Assembly (NCBI GenBank): GCA_017394605.1
Contig: JAFPXU010000157.1
Coordinates: 1-19,676 of the forward strand
DNA length: 19,676 nt
Source of the DNA: Clostridia bacterium
GTDB lineage: Bacteria > Bacillota_A > Clostridia > Christensenellales > CAG-138
Reading direction: 5' to 3'
Part shown: positions 4,999 to 10,466 of the stretch, one piece after another
Layout of the letters: every line of letters begins with the position of its first letter
Position numbering within the stretch: position 1 is the first letter of the stretch
Translations under genes and position numbers: made by a program
Notes under the pieces: model-generated
What the model was told of the DNA's origin: nothing
Database searches by the model: none
Seen by the model: the letters and a program-made list of their open reading frames with translations, nothing else

Positions 4999-5364
4999 TC
5001 ACGCGTCCCGCTTCTCTTCCGGAGCGTCTCGGTTTGCCCAGTGCGCCAGGCTGTGCAGGATCGGCCACAGTTCTTTTCCGTGTTCCGTCACAGCGTATTC
5101 GACGCGCGGAGGAATCTCCTCATACTGCGTTCTGGATACAAGCCCGTCCTGCTCCAGTTCTTTCAGGGACGCGGAAAGCACGGCAGGCGTGATCCCCGTA
5201 ATTCTTTTTCTGATATCGTTGTACCGGAGTGTTCCGTCCAGCGTCAGTGCGCACAGAATGCGCATTTTCCAACGTCCGCCGATCATCCTGACCGCGTCGC
5301 CGATCGGACACGCTTCCGAACACGGGCAGATATTCTGTTTTTCCGGTTCCAATTTATCGCTCAT
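4999..5364 (-). CDS. HxlR-family winged-helix transcriptional regulator
   Basis: 121 aa, a full-length HxlR/MarR-like DNA-binding protein. Family marks are GGRWKMRILCAL (about 29-40), LRYNDIRKRITGITPAVLSASLKELE split over the recognition helix (about 46-71), and the wing segment DGLVSR..PPRVEYAVTEHG (about 73-95). The N-terminus carries three closely spaced cysteines, CPCSEAC (Cys13, 15, 19), before the first helix. A cysteine in this region is the redox sensor in characterised HxlR-type regulators such as HypR, so thiol sensing is plausible but unproven. It sits 15 bp after the radical SAM gene and ahead of the nitroreductase, in one operon, so autoregulation is likely. Confidence 0.88.
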   Translation of the reverse strand: MSDKLEPEKQNICPCSEACPIGDAVRMIGGRWKMRILCALTLDGTLRYNDIRKRITGITPAVLSASLKELEQDGLVSRTQYEEIPPRVEYAVTEHGKELWPILHSLAHWANRDAPEEKRDA

Positions 5365-5379
5365 GATCGTTCTCTCCGT

Positions 5380-6483
5380 TCAGCCGTTTTGTGATTGTGC
5401 GAGGAAGCGTTCCACCTGCTCCCTTTTTTCGAACAGAACACATCCGCCCGCATGATCTTCCTTCAGAACGCCCTCCGTACGGAGCGCCTCAAACAGTCTC
5501 GAATGGATCGCTTCCCTGAGAGAAGTATCCTTTACATTGATATCCGAATAAGGCGAAAAGGGGCAGGGTTCCGCTCCGCCTTGCGAATTGATGTGGAAAA
5601 AGCCTCTTCCCGCGGCAACGCAGCCTCCGGAATTCTTTTCGTCTCCCGGAAAAGCGATATAGACCATCCGGTCATCTTTTTCACGCAGCTCCGCGATCCG
5701 TTTCTGCATATAGGCGCGTTCACTGTCGCCCGGTGCCAGATGCTGCGCTTCGTCTGTTACGGGAACGAATTCCACGAAAATGACCGCCTTGCAGCCAAGG
5801 TCCGCCAATCCTCCGAGAAAACCGTCAGAGAACACCTCTTCCATGTTTTCCGTCGTGACGGTAACCGATACGCCGAAAATGAGCCCGCGTTCGCTGATGC
5901 TCCGCATGGATTCCGTTACCCTCTGATAGACGCCTTCCCCTCTTCTTCCGTCGGTCGCCACCTCGTCTCCCTCAATGGAAATGATCGGCACCAGGTTGCG
6001 GCTTTTGTCAAACAGATCCAGGTACTTATCCCCGACAAAGAATCCGTTCGTAAAGATCGGAAACAGAATGGAATCGTGGCCGGCCGCCGCCGTAATGACG
6101 TCTCTTCTGAGAAGCGGCTCGCCGCCGGCGAGGAGAATGAAACTGACGCCGAGCTCTTCCGCTTCGGAGAACACGCGGTCCCAGTCTTCCCCAGAAAGCT
6201 GGCCGACCGGCTCATCGTCCGAGCATGCGTGGTTCTGCCTGGAATAACATCCGGCGCAGTGAAGATTGCAGCTTGATGTAATGCTGGCGATGAGGAACCC
6301 GGGAACATGCTCTCCGTTCTTTTCCGCTTCCAGTCTCTTTCTGGAGGCCGCTTTCGCCGCAGCGGCAAAACGCGCCATAAACAGGGATTCTCTCGGATTC
6401 TTCAGGGTCGCCCGGATCACGTCCGCCACGAAATTCTGAATATTGCGTGAAAAGTACTCCTGGAAATCAAAATTCTCCTTCAT
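5380..6483 (-). CDS. radical SAM protein with SPASM-like C-terminus
   Basis: 367 aa from ATG 6483. The radical SAM cluster motif is CNLHCAGCY (Cys72, 76, 79), followed by the SAM-binding LAGGEPLLRRD (about 118-128), and a TIM-barrel region with IPIFTNG and SIEGDE type strands. The C-terminus has Cys288, Cys307 (GGAEPCPFSPYSD) and Cys348, spaced like a partial SPASM/twitch auxiliary cluster region. The open frame begins at 6519, but ATG 6483 has AAGAGG six bases upstream, whereas the upstream ATG codons have weaker sites. It is the first gene of the operon with HxlR, nitroreductase and DUF2156-GNAT. The reaction is unknown; the auxiliary cysteines are typical of peptide-modifying or related radical SAM enzymes. 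Confidence 0.85.
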   Translation of the reverse strand: MKENFDFQEYFSRNIQNFVADVIRATLKNPRESLFMARFAAAAKAASRKRLEAEKNGEHVPGFLIASITSSCNLHCAGCYSRQNHACSDDEPVGQLSGEDWDRVFSEAEELGVSFILLAGGEPLLRRDVITAAAGHDSILFPIFTNGFFVGDKYLDLFDKSRNLVPIISIEGDEVATDGRRGEGVYQRVTESMRSISERGLIFGVSVTVTTENMEEVFSDGFLGGLADLGCKAVIFVEFVPVTDEAQHLAPGDSERAYMQKRIAELREKDDRMVYIAFPGDEKNSGGCVAAGRGFFHINSQGGAEPCPFSPYSDINVKDTSLREAIHSRLFEALRTEGVLKEDHAGGCVLFEKREQVERFLAQSQNG

Positions 6484-6530
6484 CACAAACCTCTTGATAC
6501 GATACATTCCGCCCTGCATCCGGGCACGTG

Positions 6531-6616: not shown

Positions 6617-6642
6617 AAAAAAACGGCTCCGGAAGGAGCCGT
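6617..6642 (-). terminator. rho-independent terminator after the SH3b pair
   Basis: The minus strand gives ACGGCTCC, loop TTCC, GGAGCCGT, then a run of seven T (plus-strand A run at 6617-6623). It lies 23 bases after the stop of the second SH3b gene and ends that operon. Confidence 0.85.
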
Positions 6643-6665
6643 ATCCGTATCATTCGGATCAGAAC

Positions 6666-6923
6666 TCAGTTGATGACGGCGATAAAGTCCCTGTAGACCC
6701 AGCCAAGTTTCGCGCCGACTCTCAGCAGGTACCAGCCGTTCTCTTTGGCATAGTAGGCGTAAACGGTTCCCGCATAGGCATAGCCGATCTTCTCATACTG
6801 TTTGCCTGGGCCGGATCTGACGTTGCATGCATGCTCGCAGTTGATGATCTGGACATGTCCTCTTTCCGCGCTTGCGCCGCCGGAAATGCCTTCAAGTTCT
6901 TCGAGTTTCAGTTCTTCGCTCAT
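6666..6923 (-). CDS. double-glycine leader SH3b domain small protein (paralogue 1)
   Basis: 85 aa. Residues 1-16 (MSEELKLEELEGISGG) are a double-glycine leader: Gly-1, Gly-2, Ile-4, Leu-7 and Leu-12 match the pattern cleaved by C39 peptidase transporters. The predicted mature part is 69 residues and is a bacterial SH3 (SH3b) domain: ACNVRSGPGKQYEKIGYAY, GWYLLRV, LGWVYRDFIAVI. Cys29 and Cys33 (CEHAC) are conserved in the paralogue and are unusual for SH3b. The open frame starts at a TTG at 6944, but ATG 6923 has GGAGG eight bases upstream and gives a protein exactly as long as its paralogue. It is the second gene of a two-gene operon, 45 bp after the first. Its role is probably exported wall binding; the exact function is unknown and no characterised homologue is known to me. 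Confidence 0.82.
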   Translation of the reverse strand: MSEELKLEELEGISGGASAERGHVQIINCEHACNVRSGPGKQYEKIGYAYAGTVYAYYAKENGWYLLRVGAKLGWVYRDFIAVIN

Positions 6924-6968
6924 ATTCATATCCTCCGTTTTCAAGTATTGATTGATTGGTTCAGTCCG

Positions 6969-7226
6969 TCAGTCGATGACAGCGATAAAATCTTTGTACA
7001 CGTAGCCGAATTTGCTGTTGTTGATCTTCACCCTGTACCAGTTTCCGGTCTTTCCGTAATACGGAAGTTTCTCATTTGCGTAAGCGTATCCGATCTTCTC
7101 GCTCTCCGCGTTCGGTTCCGCCCTGACGTTGCACGCATGCTGGCAGTTAATGATCAGAACATATCCCTTCCTTACGCCGACGCCGCCGGTAACGCTTTCC
7201 AGATCTTTCAGTGTGATATCGGGCAT
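6969..7226 (-). CDS. double-glycine leader SH3b domain small protein (paralogue 2)
   Basis: 85 aa. The leader MPDITLKDLESVTGG (15 residues) has Val-4, Leu-7 and Ile-12 before the Gly-Gly cleavage site. The mature part of about 70 residues is an SH3b domain: ACNVRAEPNAESEKIGYAYA, NWYRVKI, FGYVYKDFIAVID. Cys28 and Cys32 (CQHAC) match the cysteine pair of paralogue 1. Ends of the two proteins are almost identical (Y-DFIAVI), while leaders and middles differ, so the duplication is not recent. ATG 7226 has AGGAGG eight bases upstream. It is the first gene of the operon, about 60 nt below an extended -10 and the 21 bp-spaced repeats. The transporter that would cleave the leader is not in the window. 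Confidence 0.84.
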   Translation of the reverse strand: MPDITLKDLESVTGGVGVRKGYVLIINCQHACNVRAEPNAESEKIGYAYANEKLPYYGKTGNWYRVKINNSKFGYVYKDFIAVID

Positions 7227-7293
7227 TGATACTTCCTCCTGTTTGTAATTTGTATTCTGGTGGCTTTCGCCATCGCCTCTTTTCTACAGTTAC

Positions 7294-7303
7294 AGTGTAG
7301 CAC
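7294..7303 (-). promoter_or_regulatory. extended -10 promoter of the SH3b pair
   Basis: Minus strand TGCTACACT (7302-7294): an extended -10 with TG, one base, TACACT. There is no consensus -35 (about ATCTTT at 17 bp). A weak -35 next to an upstream repeat pair is typical of an activator-dependent promoter. Predicted transcript start is about 7287. Confidence 0.5.
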
Positions 7304-7329
7304 GATATACGTTCGCAAAGATACCGCTT

Positions 7330-7360
7330 ATTTGGTGAAATTCACGCCTGATTTGGTGAA
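7330..7360 (-). promoter_or_regulatory. LytTR-type direct repeat, site A
   Basis: On the minus strand TTCACCAAAT occurs at 7360-7351 and again, identically, at 7339-7330. Starts are 21 bp apart (10 bp repeat, 11 bp gap), the spacing of paired LytTR boxes (9 bp plus 12). The inner copy ends 30 bp before the -10 of the SH3b operon, where an activator would sit. The site begins 5 bp beyond the stop of the upstream AH_C-like gene. Confidence 0.65.
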
Positions 7361-7364
7361 GTTT

Positions 7365-7766
7365 TCATGAATTCGGACCGGCCGCGGTATAGGCGCGCCA
7401 TCCGCCGTACGCCGTTATCTCCTTCATTCCCCTGACCAGCTCGGGTTCTCCGAGCATTCCGAAAACCGTTTCCCCGTCTTCGAGAAACACGCGGCCGATA
7501 CAGAGCCCTGCCGGTTCGCCGGCAAACACCTCCGCGAGCCCTTCCGGAGGAAGACTCCAGATCTCAAGCGCTACCGAACCGGCGCATGGATCGTCCTGGC
7601 CGGTACGGATCATGGCGGGGTAAGCGTCGGAAACGCTGTAGAGCCGGTAGCAGCGGGCGGTCCTTGCTTCCCTTATAAAGACAGCGCCTGCCCTGATCAG
7701 ATTGCCCTCCAGCTCCAGCCCGCGCATCAGCGTCCCGTTCACGGCAAACAGTACATCATTCCTCAT
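7365..7766 (-). CDS. allophanate hydrolase C-terminal domain-like protein
   Basis: 133 aa stand-alone protein resembling the C-terminal domain of allophanate hydrolase (AtzF), which has a gamma-glutamylcyclotransferase-like fold. Supporting stretches are FAVNGTLMRGLELEGNLI, RCYRLYSVSDAYPAMIR, LEIWSLPPEGLAEVF, LCIGRVFLEDGETVFGML and the hallmark ITAYGGWRAY close to the end. There is no amidase domain, so it is not itself an allophanate hydrolase; its reaction is unknown. ATG 7766 overlaps the MATE gene end by 11 bp and is preceded by GGAGGAG inside that gene, so the two are translationally coupled. No terminator is visible before the SH3b operon downstream, so some readthrough is possible. Confidence 0.75.
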   Translation of the reverse strand: MRNDVLFAVNGTLMRGLELEGNLIRAGAVFIREARTARCYRLYSVSDAYPAMIRTGQDDPCAGSVALEIWSLPPEGLAEVFAGEPAGLCIGRVFLEDGETVFGMLGEPELVRGMKEITAYGGWRAYTAAGPNS

Positions 7767-9132
7767 AGATAATCTCCTCCTGCGTGTCAGGCAGCGGTTT
7801 CTGCTTCATCCATCTTTTTGAAAGATAATAGCCCGTCCCGATCAGAAACGGAATATATCCCGCCAGCGCGTCTCCAAGCCAGAAGCCGAGACATCCGAGC
7901 CCGGCGGCAAATCCCAGAAGCGCGGAAATCCCGATCCGTGCGGCGATCCCGTCAATCAGCGCGACCATAAGGTTCAGGCGCGAATTCCCGGAACCGTTGA
8001 TCATGGAAAAGCCCATGGTACGGACCGCGGTTCCGAAGAAGTTGACGATGCACGGCAGGATAATGATCGGCGCTGCCAGCAGAACGGCAGCATCCTGTGT
8101 AAACAGTTCAAACACCTGTACGGGGAACGCCGCAAGCGCCAGGGAAAACACGAGAGAGATTGACGCGCCGAACAGCAGGACCCATCCGAGTATGCCCCTG
8201 ACCCGGTCATACCGCCGGGCGCCGAGGTTCTGGCTCATCATGGCGCCGCCCGTCGCGTTGAATGACGCGCCGACCACGTTGATCACGGTCCCGAGCTTGT
8301 TGAATATCCCTGCAACCGCGGAATTGATGACACCGTAGCTGTTGATCCAGGAAGTAACGACCATTTTGGAAAAGTTGACCGACGCGGACTGGATCGCCAT
8401 GGGAATCCCGAGTTTCAGGAGCGCCCTCCTGCATTCGGGGTCCATCCTGAAGCTTTCCGGACGGAAATCAAAATGGAACGCTTCCCTGCGGCGGTAGAGG
8501 AACATAATGGAAAACAGGAAACTTATCCCCTGTCCGATCACAGTCGCCAGTGCCGCGCCGAATACGCCCATTCCGAAAAACGCGACGAACAGCACATCCA
8601 GAACCGTGTTCAGGACTGCCGCGATGGAAATGAATAGAAACGGCCTTCTGGAATCCCCCATTCCTCTCAGGATCGCGCTCACGATGTTATATCCGTAGAT
8701 GAACACAAGTCCCGCCGCGCAGGTTGTCACATAGCGGAGCGCGTCCGCGTACGATTCCGGAGGGGTGTTCAGAACGTCCAGTATCCCGCGGCGGAACAGG
8801 ATGCAAAGAACGGAAACGGTCGCCGCGACCGCGAAAAGAAAGGTAAAGGTGGTCCCGATCATTTTCCGGATATCGTCTTCCCGCTTTTCCCCTACCAGGC
8901 GGGCGATCAGAATCTGCCCCGCGTTGGAAAAGCCGATGGACAGAAAGGTCAGGAAATGAAGCACTTCGCCTCCGATGGAAACCGCGCTCATTCCCGTCCC
9001 GCCGAGCACCTGTCCGACAACGATCATATCGACGATGTTGTAAACTGCCTGCAACGCGTTGGAAAGAAGCAACGGCAGCGTGAACGAAAGCAGGAGCTTC
9101 GGAATGCTCCCTTCCGTCAGATCGCGTATCAA
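7756..9132 (-). CDS. MATE family efflux transporter
   Basis: 458 aa inner-membrane multidrug/toxin or small-molecule exporter coupled to an ion gradient, with 12 predicted membrane segments in two homologous halves. Family marks are LTEGSIPKLLLSFTLPLLLS at the N-terminus, VYNIVDMIVVGQVLGG, GFSNAGQILIARLVG and, in the second half, GASFNATGGAMMSQNLGAR. The open frame reaches a GTG at 9162, but the promoter places the transcript start near 9170, leaving no ribosome site for that GTG. TTG 9132 has AAGGA eight bases upstream and begins at IRDLTEGSIPK, the usual MATE N-terminus. It overlaps the AH_C-like gene. Substrate is unknown; its place between the double-glycine genes and a LytTR regulator may or may not be functional. 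Confidence 0.9.
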   Translation of the reverse strand: MIRDLTEGSIPKLLLSFTLPLLLSNALQAVYNIVDMIVVGQVLGGTGMSAVSIGGEVLHFLTFLSIGFSNAGQILIARLVGEKREDDIRKMIGTTFTFLFAVAATVSVLCILFRRGILDVLNTPPESYADALRYVTTCAAGLVFIYGYNIVSAILRGMGDSRRPFLFISIAAVLNTVLDVLFVAFFGMGVFGAALATVIGQGISFLFSIMFLYRRREAFHFDFRPESFRMDPECRRALLKLGIPMAIQSASVNFSKMVVTSWINSYGVINSAVAGIFNKLGTVINVVGASFNATGGAMMSQNLGARRYDRVRGILGWVLLFGASISLVFSLALAAFPVQVFELFTQDAAVLLAAPIIILPCIVNFFGTAVRTMGFSMINGSGNSRLNLMVALIDGIAARIGISALLGFAAGLGCLGFWLGDALAGYIPFLIGTGYYLSKRWMKQKPLPDTQEEIIYEE

Positions 9133-9176
9133 GCTGTTGTTCCTTCTTTGCGTAGGCGACACCTCTTAACCATGCC

Positions 9177-9205
9177 ATTATAACAAATTCCGCCGTCCAT
9201 ACCAA
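9177..9205 (-). promoter_or_regulatory. promoter of the MATE-AH_C operon
   Basis: Minus strand: TTGGTA (9205-9200), 17 bp spacer, TATAAT (9182-9177). The predicted start near 9170 supports translation from TTG 9132 rather than GTG 9162. Confidence 0.65.
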
Positions 9206-9253
9206 ACGCCGGAAACGATTGTCCGGCATCCGAAAAGAAGCAGAACAGAAACT

Positions 9254-9279
9254 GCCCCGCTACGCTTCCGTATCGGGGC
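9254..9279 (-). terminator. probable terminator of the LytTR gene
   Basis: GCCCCG (9254-9259) and CGGGGC (9274-9279) form an outer stem, with an inner stem TACG/CGTA and a four-base loop. The T tract after the hairpin on the minus strand is poor (AGTTTCTGTTCTG), so efficiency is doubtful. Confidence 0.5.
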
Positions 9280-9305
9280 AGGCCGCTTCGTCATAAAAAA
9301 ACTGA

Positions 9306-10031
9306 TTACAGCTGGTAATGGATGAACGCTTTTCTGAAATCCGCCGCTTTCGTTCTGGAACAGAACAGGATCTCGCCGGTCTTCAGATAGATCTCATAGG
9401 AACTGCTCTTGAAAAACCGGACATTCATGAGATTAACGACCGCGCCGGACATGTACGGGAAGAAGGAATGTCCCAGTCCCTCAATGTTTTCGATCATCGT
9501 GTGAAATCCACCGCGGAACGACATGCTTGTGACGGTCGTTCCGTCGATCAGATGAAAACACGCGGTGCGGTCCACCTTTTCGATATACAGGATATCCCTG
9601 ACCGGAATGATGCAGTCCCCGCTGCGGGACTTGACCAGCACGACCGTACGCTGCGTAATGGATCTGCAGATCTCGTCCAGCGCTTTATTCAGATCCTCCT
9701 CCGGGACTGGTTTCAGAAAATACCGGTAGGGCTGCACCTCGAACGACTGAAACACATAGTCCGGTGACGCAGAAACGAAAATGATTTTTCCGTTGAACCC
9801 TCTGGAACGCAGTGCTCTCGCCGTTTCAAGACCGGAGCCGGTCTCCGGATCGATATCCAGAAAATATAGATCGTATTCGCCGGACTCGTCGACCGCTTCC
9901 AACAATCCGCGTCCCGTTTCAAAACAGTCCCACAGAATCTCCCTGTTGGTATTATCCCTGTAGGCGCTGAGCAGGTCTTCCATTCTGTTGTCCGCTGCTT
10001 CTTCTGCGCCGCAGATGGCTATCTTGAGCAC
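9306..10031 (-). CDS. LytTR-type response regulator
   Basis: 241 aa (AgrA/LytR/VirR class). The receiver domain is about 1-122 with phospho-acceptor Asp59 in YFLDID, Ser87 in FVSAS and Lys107 in FLKPVP. The LytTR DNA-binding domain is about 136-241 (IIPVRDILYIEKVDRTACFH, NLMNVRFFKSSSYEIYLKTG). The usual acidic pair after the first strand (ICDDE) is replaced by ICGAEE, leaving only Glu10 and Glu11, so the acid pocket is altered. Start GTG 10031 has GGAGGG about 11 bases upstream and no better codon is in frame. No histidine kinase is adjacent. LytTR proteins bind pairs of 9 bp repeats 12 bp apart, and two such pairs occur in the window, upstream of the SH3b and LysM genes, which makes these its likely targets. 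Confidence 0.9.
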   Translation of the reverse strand: MLKIAICGAEEAADNRMEDLLSAYRDNTNREILWDCFETGRGLLEAVDESGEYDLYFLDIDPETGSGLETARALRSRGFNGKIIFVSASPDYVFQSFEVQPYRYFLKPVPEEDLNKALDEICRSITQRTVVLVKSRSGDCIIPVRDILYIEKVDRTACFHLIDGTTVTSMSFRGGFHTMIENIEGLGHSFFPYMSGAVVNLMNVRFFKSSSYEIYLKTGEILFCSRTKAADFRKAFIHYQL

Positions 10032-10080
10032 GTACCGTCATTCCCTCCGAAAAACTGGTGAATATCGAATATCATAACAC

Positions 10081-10109
10081 AAAAAGGAGCGTTTTTGAAA
10101 TACGCTCCT
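10081..10109 (-). terminator. rho-independent terminator after the LysM gene
   Basis: Minus strand: GGAGCGT (10108-10102), nine-base loop, ACGCTCC (10092-10086), then TTTTT (10085-10081). It separates the LysM gene from the LytTR gene, which must then have its own promoter; TATGAT at 10076-10071 on the minus strand is a weak candidate. Confidence 0.8.
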
Positions 10110-10114
10110 CCATC

Positions 10115-10339
10115 TCATCCGATCGGAATGAGCAGTTTCCATCCCGGAATGATCAGATCGGGATCCTTGATCCTTTCGCTGTTCAAAAATACAAGCTCCC
10201 TGACCGTGGTATTGAACCGTTTCGCGATTGCGGACAGAGTGTCTCCCTTTTTGACTGTATAGATATAGAACCTGGTCCCGGCGCCTCCCGTAACGTTCTC
10301 AAGGTCTTTCTTCGTGGCTTCCTTCAAATCTTCCAGCAT
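10115..10339 (-). CDS. double-glycine leader LysM domain small protein
   Basis: 74 aa. The 19-residue leader MLEDLKEATKKDLENVTGG ends in Gly-Gly with Val-4 and Leu-7 and resembles the leaders of the two SH3b proteins (LKDLESVTGG in one). The mature part of about 55 residues is essentially one complete LysM domain: YTVKKGDTLSAIAKRFNTT, REL.FLN, DLIIPGWKLLIP. LysM domains bind N-acetylglucosamine in peptidoglycan. The open frame extends to 10402, but ATG 10339 has AAAGGAGG seven bases upstream and the longer form would bury the leader. It is preceded by its own 21 bp-spaced LytTR-type repeat and followed by a strong terminator, so it is a single-gene unit next to the LytTR gene. Its role is inferred to be exported wall binding. 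Confidence 0.82.
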   Translation of the reverse strand: MLEDLKEATKKDLENVTGGAGTRFYIYTVKKGDTLSAIAKRFNTTVRELVFLNSERIKDPDLIIPGWKLLIPIG

Positions 10340-10402
10340 TTTCTCCGCCTCCTTTCTTTCGCGCGTATGGGCATAAAGGGGAATAATTCCCCCCAGTACC
10401 AT

Positions 10403-10408
10403 TTTATA
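10403..10408 (-). promoter_or_regulatory. -10 element of the LysM gene
   Basis: Minus strand TATAAA (10408-10403), with no clear -35 at 17 bp (GGTAGG). It gives a leader of about 55 nt to ATG 10339. It lies 27 bp below the inner repeat of site B, compared with 30 bp in the SH3b promoter. Confidence 0.4.
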
Positions 10409-10435
10409 TGCTCCTTCTTCTCCTGCCTACCGCGG

Positions 10436-10466
10436 ATTTGGTGAAAAACCGCTTATATTTGGTGCA
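10436..10466 (-). promoter_or_regulatory. LytTR-type direct repeat, site B
   Basis: Minus strand TGCACCAAAT (10466-10457) and TTCACCAAAT (10445-10436), starts 21 bp apart, matching site A in sequence, spacing and orientation. The inner copies of sites A and B also share GCGGTA two bases further on. The site is about 50-80 bp upstream of the plus-strand sufC promoter as well, so an effect there cannot be excluded. Confidence 0.65.

Follow-up and report, generated by a model that had tools for sequence, protein, structure and literature searches.

An NHLM-type exporter or a double-glycine leader is usually taken as the mark of an antibiotic-like peptide cluster, and exporters of the TIGR03796 and TIGR03797 types are described as exporters of NHLP and Nif11 precursors (PMC2887384). 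The ComA motif comprises Leu −12, Glu −8 and Leu −7, and LahT150, a C39 peptidase domain, cuts very diverse double-glycine leaders (PMC6363468). Among class II bacteriocin systems, the LytTR regulators PlnC and PlnD are associated with two 9-bp repeats separated by a 12-bp spacer, upstream of the −35 and −10 elements (PMC2714321). Here we describe a locus of a Clostridia bacterium, on a stretch of 19,676 nucleotides (assembly GCA_017394605.1, contig JAFPXU010000157.1; "the window" denotes this whole stretch), in which two small genes for bacterial SH3 domains (SH3b-1 and SH3b-2) and one for a LysM domain (LysM-1) carry double-glycine leaders and form two units with a LytTR response regulator gene between them. 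Peptidase exporter, double-glycine substrate and LytTR site are already known; what is new is the cargo. We know of no description of double-glycine LysM or SH3b proteins. The open-access literature yielded no account of them either (subscription papers and preprints lay outside its scope), and the available portions of PMC3482391 and PMC9610097 concern neither kind of protein.

The likeness to NHLP and Nif11 precursors lies in a double-glycine cleavage motif preceded by hydrophobic and acidic positions. Leaders are long in those precursors but span 15–24 residues here (15–19 in the window), a short hypervariable core there contrasts with a conserved wall-binding domain here, and no modification enzyme was recognised in the cluster common to the window and its closest relative. 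With the class II bacteriocin and LytTR regulons (Pln, Blp, Com) the locus shares a short double-glycine leader, 9-12-9 sites upstream and a LytTR regulator within the cluster, whereas the cargo here is LysM or SH3b and no kinase, inducer peptide or immunity gene was recognised in the cluster. Finally, the domains resemble those of LysM and clostridial SH3b wall-binding proteins (LytE, 8i2e; SH3 domains 2krs and 2kt8) by profile and, for SH3b, also by model, but here one bare domain stands behind a double-glycine leader, with no signal peptide by reading and no enzyme part.

We propose, at what we consider even chances, that these precursors are substrates of a peptidase-containing exporter that bind the cell wall and are co-regulated in this lineage by the LytTR protein. 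The N-terminal 15–19 residues of the three precursors (74–85 residues) would act as the recognition leader for a peptidase-containing ATP-binding cassette (ABC) exporter. This leader would be bound by a C39 exporter of the NHLM type, encoded at another place in the genome, and cut by it after Gly-Gly (GG), so that basic single-domain proteins of 55–70 residues would be exported, whose LysM or SH3b domains would attach to peptidoglycan. The regulator between the units would turn both on via paired 9-bp repeats, 12 bp apart and 29–30 nt before the −10 box. Cleavage, export and wall binding are predictions, and for proteins of this size the first and the last would be easy to measure.

Leaders and cargo of the small genes

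The genes, hairpins and sites of the locus lie on the minus strand, on which the reading order is LysM-1, LytTR regulator, MATE transporter, AH_C/GGCT-like gene, SH3b-2 and SH3b-1. SH3b-1 (6666..6923) and SH3b-2 (6969..7226) each encode 85 residues, with leaders of 16 (MSEELKLEELEGISGG) and 15 residues (MPDITLKDLESVTGG), and LysM-1 (10115..10339) encodes 74 residues with a leader of 19 (MLEDLKEATKKDLENVTGG). Their domains exceed the Pfam cut-offs, with E-values of 1.8e-11 and 5.5e-14 for SH3_3 (44.5 and 52.5 bits vs 27) and 6e-16 for LysM (58.6 bits vs 20.9). A preliminary description made from the sequence had reported three such leaders of 15–19 residues, this cargo, strong ribosome sites (seen here by reading) and a LytTR gene between the units, all of which are borne out. 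It had also reported terminators; a terminator-like hairpin after SH3b-1 (6623..6642) was found by a hairpin scan that gave 8 terminators in the region vs 4.7 in shuffles, while that after LysM-1 (10080..10109) was seen by eye and is absent from the list of the scan. The elements of the set that it placed at 6617–10466 stand, with the correction that 10339 is the first position of the LysM gene and that the part beyond, up to 10466, is promoter. Pfam and other family scans covered eight window proteins, and the remaining open reading frames (ORFs) were judged by reading.

A strict leader motif is matched by 2 of the 154 six-frame window ORFs of at least 40 residues (mean 0.02 per residue shuffle); these are the two SH3b genes, the LysM-1 leader falling outside the strict motif. 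By reading, none of the three leaders has a hydrophobic signal-peptide stretch. In alignments whose rows were collected using the window proteins as queries, GG is conserved in 14/14 LysM rows, the most distant being 34% identical to LysM-1, and in 6/6 SH3b rows. Tabulation of 15 precursors from the window and from three related genomes (G001, G066 and G068) gave Leu at −7 and GG in all 15, Val or Ile at −4 in 14 and Asp or Glu at −8 in 11. At the level of sequence, the double-glycine leaders thus fit the motif of peptidase-containing exporter substrates. With the predicted cut after GG, the mature parts of the tabulated precursors would have 55–74 residues and a charge of +1.7 to +8.8. GG also occurs within the first 45 residues of 41 of the 47 retrieved proteins of up to 100 residues (38 of 44 LysM proteins when three SH3b rows are excluded), a proportion biased by queries that had GG themselves; it is found near the start of 9 of 80 longer retrieved proteins too, judged without reading of leaders, the protein search (A3) having 1053 matches of which 120 were listed. 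Known leader families were matched poorly: the bacteriocin profile gave only sub-threshold leader matches for window proteins (Pfam bacteriocin leader model on SH3b-1, 10.5 bits vs a cut-off of 27.1), and no nitrile-hydratase/Nif11-type leader family was among the NCBIfam matches up to E 0.1.

The folds favour the proposed explanation as well. The SH3b model (6 sequences, mean predicted local distance difference test score [pLDDT] 78.3) has as best Foldseek match the clostridial SH3 domain 2krs (E 4.8e-4, the only match under 0.001), which is also matched by the SH3b profile at 1.4e-7. The LysM model has a mean pLDDT of 77.6, and among solved sequences the LysM profile has 34 matches. Family scans revealed no catalytic domain in the small proteins.

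Paired repeat sites and the LytTR regulator

Pattern searches identified a 9-12-9 direct repeat before each unit: at 7330–7359, before the SH3b unit, TCACCAAAT occurs twice, and at 10436–10465, before LysM-1, GCACCAAAT and TCACCAAAT are found, in each case as 9-bp direct repeats with a 12-bp spacer. The exact 8-bp core pattern occurs in the window at these two places only (0.00 expected, 200 shuffles), and the 9-bp form with three mismatches allowed again gives these two sites only (0.01 expected). Hand counts place −10-like hexamers 30 nt after the site of the SH3b unit (TACACT, 7294..7299) and 29 nt after that of LysM-1 (TAAAAT, 10401..10406). The two-repeat layout of LytTR-regulated operons is thus present before both units, upstream of −10-like hexamers. 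The response regulator gene (9306..10031; Pfam Response_reg 2e-8, LytTR 1.1e-5) encodes a putative binder of these sites, as suggested by its place between the units, and is the proposed activator of both.

The closest relative supports a coordinated set, as the preliminary description had anticipated. A scan of genome contigs gave seven loci, one of them close (L001, 83% identity over the whole protein), in G001, a 2.1 Mb metagenome-assembled genome from goat omasum titled Clostridia bacterium. Its gene order is that of the window (SufBC, LysM, regulator, MATE, AH_C, SH3b-2, SH3b-1), differing beyond SH3b-1, and the leaders and both repeat sites are kept. Searched over all of G001 with up to two mismatches, the window motif gave four sites (none with a reversed-pattern control), and all four precede double-glycine LysM or SH3b genes, two being syntenic and two lying before previously unseen LysM genes. 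A looser motif, drawn after five sites had already been seen, gave exactly these five, with none added when one mismatch was allowed and none in the control; the fifth, first noticed by eye, precedes a third SH3b gene, whose product is under the Pfam cut-off (24.3 vs 27 bits). Alignment searches yielded at least 10 short double-glycine proteins in G001, seven LysM and three SH3b, each of them read out, forming nine units of which five are preceded by the site. One DNA site tied to one gene class represents a small, directly testable regulon. One of the LysM-gene sites of G001 (L028, about 5738–5776) is directly preceded by an additional half-repeat (TTCACCAAATCTTCACCAAAT).

Among 396 genomes of the order, a close regulator was found in G001 only (85% identical, at the same place); G181 gave the one further match at E 1e-30, with 31% identity. 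The repeat site seems confined to this lineage. In the regulator the phospho-acceptor region is retained (FLDID, with the aspartate counted as Asp59). Receivers usually have an acidic pair near the N terminus, which by reading is lacking both in the window (CGAEE) and in L001 (CGGKD); the Pfam receiver match covers the profile only from position 27 or 28 on, and no kinase gene adjoining the regulator was recognised by reading in the clusters of the window or L001 (a search of all of G001 for kinases was not made). The regulator may possibly act without phosphorylation.

These features bear on a signalling role, in which the exported domains would be cues of cell density or contact near the wall, looped with the LytTR regulator in a ComC/ComDE-like manner. 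The regulator encoded between the units and the sites before both would suit such a loop, the logic of which is that of the Com, Blp and Pln systems (PMC2714321), but the clusters show no recognised histidine kinase, by reading the receiver lacks the acidic pair, and the cargo is no short pheromone but a folded domain. We regard signalling as very improbable.

Exporters and distribution in related genomes

Reading of the window ORFs brought to light neither a C39 exporter nor a histidine kinase. G001 has one C39 peptidase match, an exporter of the NHLM type in a frame of 728 residues (L026, 8534–10717) scoring 906.7 bits with TIGR03796 (cut-off 853.3), together with a TIGR03797 partner (715 vs a cut-off of 709.4). 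The same exporter families (TIGR03794, TIGR03796, TIGR03797) are found in G066, G375 and G046. Of the 103 family genomes, 23 give a C39 match and 21 exceed the cut-off. Among the findings that the preliminary description had named as refuting its reading were a genome lacking such an exporter and close homologues lacking the leader. Checked on relatives, neither occurred: besides the conservation of GG in all alignment rows, one C39 exporter is present in each of the six genomes with double-glycine LysM genes that were read (G001, G066 and G068 in the family; G179, G340 and G375 in the order). Finding it in all three family genomes given the background of 23/103 has a chance near 0.01, the order having no measured background rate, and other genomes may have double-glycine LysM genes that escaped notice.

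Double-glycine LysM genes adjoin the exporter in G066 and G375. The latter (L152, 7136–13913) has, in line, an HlyD-like gene, a C39-ABC gene, a second ABC gene, a gene for an extracytoplasmic function sigma factor, an unknown gene and two double-glycine LysM genes, an apparent operon with the same cargo under different regulation. The link between exporter and LysM gene is thus real in two genomes, usually not by neighbourhood. Exporter loci were read in 22 genomes, namely G375, G340, G179 and every family genome that exceeds the cut-off except G020 and G021 (19 of 21, G001 and G066 included); apart from those of G066 and G375, leader scans gave no such gene in any of them (20 loci), several of the stretches stopping at contig ends. 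Export by a C39 exporter, as claimed in the preliminary description, is to this extent supported indirectly.

Several observations weigh against the proposed mechanism. For the source organism, evidence of an exporter comes from related genomes only, none having been seen in the same genome. The exporter locus of G001 itself has no double-glycine LysM or SH3b gene, the strict repeat site is absent from the 3.4 kb around it, and only 2/22 exporter loci have an adjoining gene of this kind. As for regulation, the four G001 units lacking the site are all LysM units, none of nine LysM genes checked in other genomes is preceded by it, a second LytTR protein of G001 has a stronger domain score (60.3 vs 25.6 bits), and the letters of the repeats differ from the LytTR consensus.

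The scarcity of adjoining genes would also suit small LysM and SH3b proteins that are not exported but cytoplasmic or spore-associated, with a GG motif that is a relic or used otherwise, and the SafA spore-coat model finds a likeness in the LysM part of LysM-1, at 40.1 bits short of its cut-off of 67.85. Against this stand the conservation of GG in every LysM and SH3b row and in most short retrieved proteins (with the query bias noted above), Leu −7 in all tabulated precursors, and the exporter in six of six genomes, and we consider this explanation quite improbable.

By sequence, double-glycine LysM proteins are more widespread than double-glycine SH3b proteins. The LysM alignment matches 42 of 103 family genomes and (A5) 48 of 396 order genomes, mostly in longer frames, which were judged by length with their leaders unread, so that double-glycine genes may be missed. 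Short double-glycine SH3b proteins were found in the window, in G001 and in three database clusters close to SH3b-2 only; the SH3b alignment matches 43 of 396 order genomes, and outside G001 all listed frames have at least 204 residues and were judged without reading of leaders. The SH3b matches at L002–L007 (Lachnoanaerobaculum, oral Lachnospiraceae and Mesorhizobium; 29–35% identity) run from residue 22 on. G014 encodes a short LysM protein without a GG leader, and no double-glycine LysM gene was found in the stretches around the order matches in G119, G152, G124 and G092. Before LysM genes of other genomes no period-21 repeat was found except a low-complexity one in L148. Profile searches and leader scans are the basis of these negatives, since quick gene picking hides small genes under longer antisense frames, as it did the LysM gene of L027.

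Some observations were made in passing. In G340 there are at least four double-glycine LysM genes, two in tandem at L150 7900–8389. In G046 another small double-glycine protein (L102, 1215–1472) lies about 1.4 kb from an NHLM-type exporter and has, by reading, two CxxC-like, zinc-finger-like pieces, a cargo not bacteriocin-like. Leader-like matches near exporters at L095 12709–13035, L102 22–159 and L190 204–329 were set aside by reading. A phage or viral origin was likewise set aside: 13 viral contigs match the LysM alignment, and the three proteins translated (L012, L015 and L016) are long, leaderless and read as wall hydrolases.

Selection, possible role and neighbouring genes

Comparison of the window with L001 gives 81–85% identity for the three precursors and ratios of nonsynonymous to synonymous substitution rates (dN/dS) of 0.12, 0.13 and 0.20. 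The regulator (0.14), MATE (0.11) and a flanking aminotransferase (0.20) give similar values, while those of SufC (0.08) and SufB (0.045) are lower. Selection on the precursors is purifying, and not that of a hypervariable core. By reading, no immunity gene was recognised in the units of the window or L001, immunity proteins being diverse.

Decoration of the cell's own wall, immunity and competition had been put forward tentatively in the preliminary description. The main rival to the proposed role is competition, with exported domains acting as bacteriocin-like weapons or blockers by attachment to foreign walls, which they might for instance mask or whose synthesis they might disturb. The leader, the exporter class and the LytTR-type sites are as in bacteriocin systems, the mature proteins are basic and paralogues are many per genome, all of which would fit such a use; but the cargo is a conserved known domain that evolves like its neighbours, no catalytic domain is present, and purifying selection and the failure to recognise an immunity gene both weigh against a bacteriocin. 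Competition appears rather unlikely, and for the same two reasons a steady role on the producer's own wall is favoured: the exported domains would coat or remodel this wall, and the many paralogues would differ in binding. More broadly, and only tentatively, NHLM-type exporters might serve some Clostridia as a Sec-independent route by which the cell's own wall is dressed with numerous bare LysM and SH3b domains, jointly switched in one lineage by a LytTR regulator that may be independent of phosphorylation. If so, some exporters of this type would be secretion systems for wall proteins, and bacteriocin calls from genome mining would need re-reading.

Between the LysM and SH3b units (7365–9162) lie the genes for the MATE transporter (7756..9162) and the AH_C/GGCT-like protein (7365..7766), both kept in L001 by family scan and comparison. 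The latter is a stand-alone allophanate-hydrolase C-terminal (AH_C) domain adjoining the transporter gene. Beyond SH3b-1, the window has genes for a radical SAM protein (5380–6501) and a MarR/HxlR-like regulator (4999–5364). The radical SAM gene was set aside as a maturase, L001 having a LacI-like regulator and sugar genes at that place, and both genes probably lie outside the system. The window segment 348–662 encodes the beginning of a lipoprotein that has Ala/Pro-rich repeats and reads as a solute-binding protein with its frame cut short; L001 encodes a lipoprotein of 446 residues whose start resembles it.

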